Positions 21,977 through 25,729 of a stretch of DNA of 33,754 nucleotides are shown in pieces. Every line of letters begins with the position of its first letter. Positions within the stretch are counted from its first letter, which is position 1. The DNA is from an uncultured Romboutsia sp. Its GTDB lineage: Bacteria > Bacillota > Clostridia > Peptostreptococcales > Peptostreptococcaceae. The translations under genes were made by a program, and so were the position numbers. The notes beneath the pieces are model-generated. The model ran no database searches, had not been told where the DNA came from, and worked only from the letters and a program-made list of their open reading frames with translations. The stretch spans positions 1 through 33,754 of the forward strand of contig CAJFPU010000009.1 of the NCBI GenBank assembly GCA_904418825.1, written 5' to 3'.

Positions 21977-23074
21977 TTATACGTTAAATCTGAATAATAT
22001 AACGTCTCCATCTTTAACTACATATTCTTTACCTTCTAGTCTAACTAATCCCTTTTCTTTAGCAGCAGTCATAGTACCAACTTGTACTAAATCATTAAAT
22101 GCTATAGTTTCCGCTCTAATGAATCCTCTTTCTATATCAGAGTGTATTTTACCACCAGCTGCAGGAGCTTTAGTACCAACTTTTATAGTCCAAGCTCTAA
22201 CTTCTTGAGGTCCAGCAGTTAAGTAAGATATAAGACCTAATAATGCATAAGAAGATTTTATTAATTTATCAAGACCAGATTGCTCAAGTCCTAATGTTTC
22301 TAAGAATTCTTTCTTTTCTTCTTCAGTATCAAGTTCAGCTATTTCTGCTTCTATTTGAGCACAAACAACAACAACTTCAGCATTTTCAGTAGCAGCGAAT
22401 TCTCTTACTTTAGCAACATATGCATTGTTTTCACCTTCATCAGCTAAGTCATCTTCACTTACATTTGTAGCATATATTACAGGCTTTGATGTAAGTAAGT
22501 TTAATGAATCAACGAAAGCTTTTTGATCTTCATTAAAGTCCATAGTTCTAACACATTTACCATCTTCTAAAACTGCCATTATTTCTTTTAAGAATTCAAC
22601 TTCAGCAGCTACAGATTTATCAGCTTTAGCAGCTTTAGTTGATTTTTGTATTCTTCTATCTAATATTTCTATGTCAGAGAATATTAATTCTAAGTTTATA
22701 GTTTCTATATCTCTTAAAGGATCAACAGAACCATCAACATGAACTACATTTCCATCTTCGAAACATCTAACAACGTGAACTATAGCATCAACTTCTCTTA
22801 TATGAGATAAGAATTTATTTCCTAAACCTTCACCTTTAGAAGCTCCTCTAACAAGTCCAGCTATATCGCAGAATTCTATAGCTGTAGGAACTATTTTTTT
22901 TGAGTCATATAATTCTCTTAACTTTTCTAATCTCTCATCTGGAACAGAAACAACACCAACGTTTGGCTCTATTGTACAGAAAGGATAGTTTGCAGATTCT
23001 GCACCTGCTTGCGTTATTGCATTAAATAGTGTACTTTTACCTACATTTGGTAAACCAACTATACCTAATTTCAT
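21977..23074 (-). CDS. ychF: Redox-regulated ATPase YchF (Obg-like GTP-binding protein)
   Basis: MKLGIVGLPNVGKSTLFNAITQAGAESANYPFCTIEPNVGVV, VDIAGLVRGASKGEGLGNKFL-type G3 region, C-terminal TGS domain. The start is the ATG at 23074 with RBS AGAGAGGA; the ORF-track start is upstream. Confidence 0.96.
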   Translation of the reverse strand: MKLGIVGLPNVGKSTLFNAITQAGAESANYPFCTIEPNVGVVSVPDERLEKLRELYDSKKIVPTAIEFCDIAGLVRGASKGEGLGNKFLSHIREVDAIVHVVRCFEDGNVVHVDGSVDPLRDIETINLELIFSDIEILDRRIQKSTKAAKADKSVAAEVEFLKEIMAVLEDGKCVRTMDFNEDQKAFVDSLNLLTSKPVIYATNVSEDDLADEGENNAYVAKVREFAATENAEVVVVCAQIEAEIAELDTEEEKKEFLETLGLEQSGLDKLIKSSYALLGLISYLTAGPQEVRAWTIKVGTKAPAAGGKIHSDIERGFIRAETIAFNDLVQVGTMTAAKEKGLVRLEGKEYVVKDGDVILFRFNV

Positions 23075-23298
23075 ATATATCGTCCTCTCTTTTGTCAATT
23101 TTATTTATAAATTTAAACAATTTATTAAGTATTAAAATAGACTTAATAAGCTAAATTATCAAGTTTTATTTAATTATTTTGTAGACATACATTTTAATTA
23201 TACAACATATATATAATAGATGTAAACTATACAATTAAGTTAATACAAATAACAGAGACTTATTTAAAAAAGTTAATTTTTATAGTGAGGTTGATTTT

Positions 23299-24408
23299 AT
23301 GTTACTTTCAATAATTTTATTTTCATCTTTAGCATTTAGCTTTATATTAAAAGGAAGTTATGAAAACATATTTATAGTTTTAGCTACAATGTCATTTTAT
23401 AAGCAAGTAATAGTAAATAAAAATTATAAAAGTTTAATTTATGGAGTTTTGATTTCATTTATTGGAGTAAACTTGGTTATATCTTTTATATTTAAAGATT
23501 ACATAGTAATAAAAGAGGTACAACCAGTGAAAGAAAAAGAAGAAACTTTAGTTTTGTTAGTATCAGAAGGTGAAAATAAAAACTATAATATAAAGGAACG
23601 TTCAACTCAAATTTACTATGAGGAAGGTTATAAAGGCATGATTACTGGAATAAGTAATTTATACAATTATAAAAGTTACTATAGTAAATTAGGATTTAGT
23701 GAATTTAAGCATAAAGCAGAAGAGATAGCAGAAAAGCTAAGACATAGCTTAGGTAACGGTTATAGAGTGGTTAATTCATATATGTACTCGAAACCTTATT
23801 TTGAATACTCAGTAGAATCAATTATAGAACAAGGATATAAAAAAATAATAATATGTCCTTTATTTATGACAGAAGGAACTGATTATGAAGTTTTTATGAA
23901 TAGATATGAACAATTAAATCTTACATCTATGAATATAGCAGATGTTGAAGTTTTAGAACCGTTTTATAATGCAAATAATTTAGCTCAACTATATAAAGAT
24001 GAAATTTTAAAAAATATAAGAAAATCAGAAGAAGATAGTGGAGTATTACTTATTGGCTTACATAATAAAAATAATTTAGAGCAAGATATTTTATTTAGAG
24101 AAAAGATAAAGAAATATATAGAAGATTCAGAAAATGATATAGATATTCAAATAAAATTACCTCTTCTAGAAAACAATAAAAAAGATATAATTAAATCAGG
24201 AGAAGAATTGTTAGAATATGGAATAAAAACTCTATATGTTGTTGCTCCAACATCTACGATAGATACCATGTATACTAGACATCTAGTAAATAGCATACTA
24301 GAAGAATTAGATATGGGAGATACTAAATTTTACTATATAGATCCACCAGATAAAATAAATACTTTAGTTGATACCCTTTATACCAAGATAATACTTATGC
24401 AAATTTAG
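23299..24408 (+). CDS. Membrane-anchored, divergent ferrochelatase-like (chelatase-fold) protein
   Basis: N-terminal ~65 residues contain 2-3 hydrophobic segments, then EETLVLLVSEG, YYSKLGFSEFKHKAEEIAEKL, RVVNSYMYSKPYFEYSVESIIEQGYKKIIICPLFM, GVLLIGLHNKN. Order and spacing resemble HemH. Assigned by eye from motif order only. Confidence 0.55.
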   Translation: MLLSIILFSSLAFSFILKGSYENIFIVLATMSFYKQVIVNKNYKSLIYGVLISFIGVNLVISFIFKDYIVIKEVQPVKEKEETLVLLVSEGENKNYNIKERSTQIYYEEGYKGMITGISNLYNYKSYYSKLGFSEFKHKAEEIAEKLRHSLGNGYRVVNSYMYSKPYFEYSVESIIEQGYKKIIICPLFMTEGTDYEVFMNRYEQLNLTSMNIADVEVLEPFYNANNLAQLYKDEILKNIRKSEEDSGVLLIGLHNKNNLEQDILFREKIKKYIEDSENDIDIQIKLPLLENNKKDIIKSGEELLEYGIKTLYVVAPTSTIDTMYTRHLVNSILEELDMGDTKFYYIDPPDKINTLVDTLYTKIILMQI

Positions 24409-24500: not shown

Positions 24501-24700
24501 AATTTACATATATATATAAATTTAGAGAAAGAAGAGTTAAATAAGTATCATAATATATTTTATAACCCGGGAAATATGTCATTGTTTGTTGTAGAAATTT
24601 TATAATTTTACAAAATATTAGATAGTTTATGAAAAGATAGTGATAATATTGTTATAAGATTAAATAATAGAATAGAAAAATATAAAAAAGTATAATATGT
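24501..24700 (+). pseudogene. Degraded M16-family (YmfH/pitrilysin-like) peptidase remnant
   Basis: In frame: NLHIYINLEKEELNKYHNIFYNPGNMSLFVVEIL* then FYKILDSL*KDS. Resembles the M16 motif (KEDLxxxYxxFYxPxNMxLFVVGDVDPEKVLxxLEK), with in-frame stops and no intact ORF around it. Confidence 0.6.
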
Positions 24701-24906: not shown

Positions 24907-24949
24907 TTATAATATTATAATAAAAATTATATATATGGAGGGAGTACAT

Positions 24950-25729
24950 ATGATAGATATTCATTGTCATGTTGTTCCAAATATTGATGATGGGGCAAAA
25001 GATTTAGAAGATGCTTTAGAAATGGCTAGAATTGCATATAATGAAGGTATAAGAAAGATAGTTAATACATCTCATTATCATCCTAGCTTTGAATATAAAA
25101 AAGGAAATGAACTTCTTGAAGATATAAAAGAGTTTAATAACATACTTAAATCAAATAATATAAATATAGAAATATATATAGGAAATGAACTTTATTATAG
25201 TGAAGATATGATAGATATTATAGAACAAAAAGAGTTTTATACATTGAATAATAGTAAATACTTATTAATAGAATTTCCACCGATTAGATTTCCTAAAAAC
25301 TTAGTAGATATAATATATGAAATCAAGATAAGAGGCTATATACCAATATTAGCTCATGTTGAACGATACAAGGAAGTACAGGAAAATGTAAACTTAATTT
25401 ATGATTGCATAAATGAAGGAGCTTTAATTCAAGTTAATTCATCAAGTATAATTGGTAAAAATGGAAAAGAGGCCAAAAGAGTAAGTCAAATATTACTAGA
25501 TAATAATATGGTACATTTTATAGCTACAGATGCTCATAGTAGTCAAAGGAGAAGACCTATGATTAAAGAGACCTATGATTATGTATGTAGCAAATATGGA
25601 GATAAAACTGCTGAGATCTTATTTATTGAAAACCCAAGTAAAGTAATATTAAATGAAGATATAAATATAAAGTCTCCTATAAAATATAATAAGCCTAAGG
25701 GTTTTTTACAAAAATTATTTAAAAAGTAG
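24950..25729 (+). CDS. PHP-domain protein, CpsB/YwqE-type tyrosine-protein phosphatase
   Basis: MIDIHCHVVPNIDDGAKDLEDALEMARIAYNEGIRKIVNTSHYHP, GYIPILAHVERYKEVQENV, VHFIATDAHSSQRRRP. The start at 24950 follows the GGAGGG RBS. Confidence 0.9.
   Translation: MIDIHCHVVPNIDDGAKDLEDALEMARIAYNEGIRKIVNTSHYHPSFEYKKGNELLEDIKEFNNILKSNNINIEIYIGNELYYSEDMIDIIEQKEFYTLNNSKYLLIEFPPIRFPKNLVDIIYEIKIRGYIPILAHVERYKEVQENVNLIYDCINEGALIQVNSSSIIGKNGKEAKRVSQILLDNNMVHFIATDAHSSQRRRPMIKETYDYVCSKYGDKTAEILFIENPSKVILNEDINIKSPIKYNKPKGFLQKLFKK

Follow-up and report, generated by a model that had tools for sequence, protein, structure and literature searches.

The locus and its gene product

The stretch of DNA analysed here (the window: 33,754 nucleotides from an uncultured Romboutsia sp.) carries, between a divergent ychF gene and the remnant of an M16 peptidase gene, an ORF for a protein with a membrane-bound N-terminus and a ferrochelatase-like domain (Table 1). 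The ORF is real and is part of a conserved family. Its ortholog in R. timonensis encodes a protein 93% identical to that of the window, and comparison with the other Romboutsia genomes gave a dN/dS of about 0.07-0.14, which corresponds to purifying selection.

Table 1. Position of the chelatase-like gene, its parts and its neighbours in the window.
Feature	Position	Strand	Basis
ychF, divergent neighbour at many family loci	21977..23074	-	ORF list, synteny
Gene of the putative membrane-anchored pseudo-chelatase, 369 aa	23299..24408	+	ORF, homologs, dN/dS vs other Romboutsia
Three predicted membrane helices, residues 2-16, 20-40 and 44-63	23302..23487	+	AlphaFold2 model, homolog alignment
Codon of invariant Glu22, near first loop	23362-23364	+	Family alignment
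Ferrochelatase-fold domain, residues 80-369	23536..24405	+	Alignment, AlphaFold2, Foldseek, profiles
L254-H255, aligned with the catalytic His of HemH; His not conserved	24058..24063	+	Profile alignment, residue counts
Y325, aligned with the catalytic Glu of HemH; Glu not conserved	24271..24273	+	Profile alignment, residue counts
yfmH (M16 peptidase) remnant, two in-frame stops	24522..24683	+	48% identity over 54 aa
CpsB/CapC-type PHP phosphatase, next intact gene	24935..25729	+	

The AlphaFold2 model, built from a 34-sequence alignment (pLDDT 90, pTM 0.87), shows an alternating alpha/beta domain C-terminal to three helices, so that the two or three hydrophobic segments proposed in an earlier note on this DNA can now be counted as three. 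The same architecture characterizes the whole family: in proteins of about 370-400 aa, a complete ferrochelatase fold comes after three membrane helices at the N-terminus.

Loop composition points to the orientation of the protein. Averaged over the family, the first loop contains 0.35 Lys/Arg and 1.3 Asp/Glu residues, and the second 3.3 and 0.9, respectively. Based on these charges and on the positive-inside rule, the N-terminus and the second loop are predicted to lie on the inner side of the cytoplasmic membrane, and the chelatase domain on its outer side. The low cysteine content of the domain (0.46%) points the same way, being close to that of the neighbouring penicillin-binding protein (0.55%) and below those of YchF (1.2%) and RsmH (2.2%), although one cytoplasmic neighbour has an even lower content (0.29%).

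The order was sampled with 247 genomes, of which 65, distributed over four families, have a full-length ortholog (counted as a profile match above 100 bits); orthologs also occur in three further families of the class. A broader sample of 280 genomes of the phylum matched only the window's own genome, and therefore the family looks like a Clostridia-level one. Identity is 93% within the genus and 21-27% with members of other families, the N-terminal membrane part being kept throughout. When the genome collection was scanned with peptide patterns, only R. timonensis matched. Weak profile matches (frames of 128-143 aa, and parts of frames of about 450 aa) were taken as canonical CbiX-like proteins or as chance. 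One ortholog (G046:C1:1252520-1253675) is split by an in-frame TAG, and is possibly a pseudogene or the result of a sequencing error. Our literature searches, which covered open-licence papers, retrieved no description of the family.

A ferrochelatase fold with an altered site

The ORF scores 32.0 bits against the Pfam model PF00762 (Ferrochelatase; cut-off 27) and 27.4 bits against Pfam CbiX (cut-off 22). The NCBIfam models gave scores below their curated cut-offs, namely 24.4 bits for the HemH equivalog TIGR00109 (cut-off 124.6) and 26-27 bits for the SirB/CbiX/CfbA models (cut-offs of 120). In a Foldseek search of the PDB, HemH/CpfC ranked at the top (1doz, E 2.8e-9, TM 0.70 by target length), followed by SirB and FetB, with no unrelated family ahead of them; HemH was again the top match of a second model, built from a distant homolog (about 24-25% identical). 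Profile-profile alignment with 21 HemH sequences extended across the entire domain (prob 97.1, E 5.9e-11), and reproduced over its full length the HemH-like order of motifs that the earlier note had recognized. With two models and the profile alignment pointing in the same direction, the class II chelatase (HemH-type) fold and the homology to HemH can be considered solid. A phage origin was also considered and discarded, as there was no PHROG match.

Because a direct sequence search of the PDB returned matches too weak for placing the active site, the alignment of the catalytic residues was made with profiles. The two residues concerned are a histidine (H183 in Bacillus subtilis, H194 in Escherichia coli, H263 in human) and a glutamate (E264, E275 and E343, respectively); every variant of human H263 studied so far is inactive (PMC9133952). 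E. coli H194 aligns to L254, or to H255 if a shift of one residue is allowed, but column 255 of the family alignment is occupied by Glu in 12/34, His in 4/34 and Lys in 4/34 members. The segment LLIGLHNKN, which had been read as retaining the catalytic His, can hardly be so interpreted, since the His is found in these four members only and never together with the Glu. E. coli E275 aligns to Y325, in a column where seven of the 34 members have Glu, and these seven differ from the four that have His, so that no member combines the two. The absence of the catalytic Glu had thus been correctly anticipated, while the shortening claimed for the same region is not evident: the region aligns with no clear truncation.

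Other residues are conserved instead. They are E22 at the first loop, G91, E92, Y96, K125, Y128, P166, Y167, P187, G248 and G308, and they define a family signature composed of GE-x3-Y (91-96), LxxYKxxY with the invariant Lys125, PY (166-167), P187, G248 and G308. Among the 34 members examined, the canonical catalytic pair is shown to be lost, and the family has retained the fold with an altered site. Fold search, profiles and residue counts all agree with the earlier proposal of a membrane-anchored relative of the chelatases devoid of that pair.

Genomic neighbourhood

Comparison with other genomes, which was needed for the detection of the yfmF-yfmH-lgt synteny, of the decay of yfmH and of the sporulation link discussed below, revealed a conserved gene environment in most relatives. 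The typical order is divergent ychF, the chelatase-like gene, yfmF, yfmH and lgt, with the chelatase-like gene at the head of what resembles an operon, often followed by mraZ, rsmH, ftsL and the gene of a penicillin-binding protein. The M16 pair was identified as YfmF/YfmH through NF047422 and NF047421. Its NCBIfam name points to modification of EF-P, and pairs of the YmfF/YmfH type are heteromeric proteases that mature peptides (PMC8960859).

Among the 65 carriers of the order, 11 do not have the pair, including all four Romboutsia genomes. The remnant in the window matches yfmH with an E value of 2.9e-8 and 48.1 bits, compared with at most 22.3 bits in 300 shuffles. A strict functional dependence of the chelatase-like gene on the pair is ruled out by the 11 carriers without it, and considering that dN/dS in Romboutsia is low despite the loss of the pair, the gene has a function that outlasts it. 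At six further loci (L036, L038-L040, L043 and L067), where the gene has no adjoining yfmF-yfmH, the pair is missing from the genome altogether, which suggests that YfmF/YfmH were lost several times independently.

A block of about 55 bp between ychF and the gene (23182-23240; TAGACATACAT...ATTATACA...CATATATATAAT...GTAAACT) is conserved across genera, including genera that do not have the chelatase-like gene. It was considered as the promoter of this gene and ruled out, because genomes that lack the gene have it upstream of ychF as well, and because it holds the sigma-A-type promoter of ychF (minus strand) with a conserved 5' leader.

Heme pathway context

No tetrapyrrole gene was seen within the window, in line with the lack of nearby heme genes stated in the earlier note, and no recognised tetrapyrrole gene or heme-pathway synteny was observed at the family loci. 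The search for heme genes elsewhere in the hosts gave a divided picture. This family aside, neither the genus nor the relatives sampled yielded a canonical HemH above the curated cut-off; hemB, on the other hand, was detected in the other Romboutsia genomes and in most carriers, and is missing from 13 of 64 well-assembled carrier genomes. With a canonical HemH missing from the genus and hemB from at least these 13 carriers, the protein is unlikely to be an enzyme of the heme pathway. The role of tetrapyrrole or metal sensor or chaperone that had been put forward stays a conjecture. No riboswitch adjoining the gene was found in seven sources. An azaaromatic (yjdF) riboswitch (L037:14098-14205, minus strand) lies in the vicinity of one distant homolog's locus without adjoining the gene.

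Co-occurrence with sporulation

All the 65 carriers of the order contain spoIVA, compared with 52/182 non-carriers, and so do all eight carriers of other families (73/73 carriers tested overall), with spoIVA serving as the one marker gene of sporulation across these related genomes. Within the window's family, the five genera without spoIVA are all without the gene, and 14 of the 18 genera with spoIVA have it (hypergeometric p 0.004). The M16 pair is not confined to sporulators (64 of 139 pair-bearing genomes have no spoIVA), and the sporulation link is therefore specific to the chelatase-like gene. However, shared ancestry and the reduced genomes of non-sporulators confound this co-occurrence. 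Several sporulating genera (g9, g10, g14 and g17) do not have the gene, which is therefore not a core sporulation gene.

In 11/41 loci, a gene for a YhcN/YlaJ sporulation lipoprotein is located directly upstream on the same strand; in B. cereus, lipoproteins of this family affect the lysis of the cortex that depends on SleB (PMC12331253). A search for SigE, SigF, SigG and SigK motifs upstream of the gene, a weak test that relied on B. subtilis consensus sequences, did not reveal any convincing enrichment. Four of 42 upstream regions contain a SigK-like pattern, which was rejected because it lies mainly in one genus and in the ychF block.

Possible function

Considering that its relatives, in the genomes tested, are confined to spoIVA-bearing bacteria, the protein probably has a different, spore-related job. 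The chances that it is a sporulation-linked, membrane-anchored pseudo-chelatase appear to us about evenly balanced. The chelatase domain would face the outer side of the cytoplasmic membrane, which in the forespore is the space where the cortex is built. Its two-lobed cleft may have been rebuilt around the GE-x3-Y, Lys125/Tyr128 and PY residues, and would bind a ligand or a partner protein with no metal insertion, while Lys125 and, in the outer loop, Glu22 may keep the cleft pressed to the membrane. The role would most likely be in spore envelope assembly or in germination, near lipoproteins of the YhcN/YlaJ type. It is also conceivable, as a more tentative proposal, that a ferrochelatase evolved in a clostridial sporulation family into a non-catalytic, outward-facing receptor of the forespore or spore membrane, with a part, for instance, in assembling the cortex or controlling germination.

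Other explanations were weighed against a sporulation-linked pseudo-chelatase. An extracytoplasmic binder of heme, porphyrin or metal (a sensor, scavenger or chaperone), comparable to FetB or to periplasmic CbiK, would fit the predicted topology and the appearance of FetB among the profile (E 0.06) and fold matches and of periplasmic CbiK (2xvx) among the latter, and the conserved Tyr, Lys and Glu residues could act as ligands. However, the aligned family members have no conserved His or Cys ligand, and neither heme-uptake nor metal genes were recognised at the family loci, nor was a riboswitch adjoining the gene; the carriers devoid of hemB also argue against a binder, although uptake would not require hemB. 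We regard such a function as unlikely. A chelatase that is still active through a relocated catalytic site would agree with the full-length HemH fold and homology and with the different set of invariant polar residues, but the absence, among the 34 members, of any with both His and Glu, the missing hemB and the lack of heme-pathway synteny make it very improbable.

The protein could also be a functional partner of YfmF/YfmH, e.g. a membrane platform or a regulator for that protease. The gene is found directly upstream of yfmF-yfmH in 31/41 loci, with gaps mostly of 1-100 bp and with distant families included, and 54 of the 65 order carriers have the pair; moreover, YmfF/YmfH have been reported at the inner spore membrane of B. 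subtilis (PMC13393411). Against a partnership stand the 85 genomes in which the pair occurs without the chelatase-like gene, and the 11 carriers, the four Romboutsia genomes among them, where the pair is absent and yet, in Romboutsia, the gene is under purifying selection. In addition, the chelatase domain is predicted to be outside, whereas M16 peptidases of the YfmF/YfmH type show no evident membrane anchor and are regarded as cytoplasmic. On balance, a partnership of this kind seems quite doubtful.

Relation to known proteins

The likeness of the window protein to HemH/CpfC (PF00762) consists in a fold shared over the whole domain and in a remote homology; the former differs in its three additional membrane helices, its predicted location outside the membrane, the loss of the catalytic His and Glu and the absence of a heme pathway nearby. 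The likeness to the sirohydrochlorin chelatases SirB/CbiX/CfbA is limited to the fold class and to weak profile matches, below the curated cut-offs, and the family does not conserve their catalytic, metal-binding His. The proteins of the M16 pair YfmF/YfmH are unrelated to the chelatase-like protein, being only its usual downstream neighbours, lost in the window's genus. An extracytoplasmic chelatase fold, in our case a predicted location, is shared with FetB of Porphyromonas gingivalis (9b86) and with the periplasmic CbiK of Desulfovibrio vulgaris; neither is known to be fused to three helices. FetB has been reported to handle porphyrins (PMC13402209).

The ferrochelatase label assigned by Pfam is probably wrong for the window protein, judging from the sequence evidence, and where an organism offers no other candidate it may lead to the protein being counted as part of heme synthesis. 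If the spore link is true, a lineage-specific membrane component would be added to clostridial sporulation, and bacteria would offer an example of the chelatase fold repurposed without its chemistry. A ferrochelatase relative without the catalytic His is described in a eukaryote, the pseudo-ferrochelatase of Caenorhabditis elegans (PMC9133952), which is likened here by its description and is assumed to have an independent origin.
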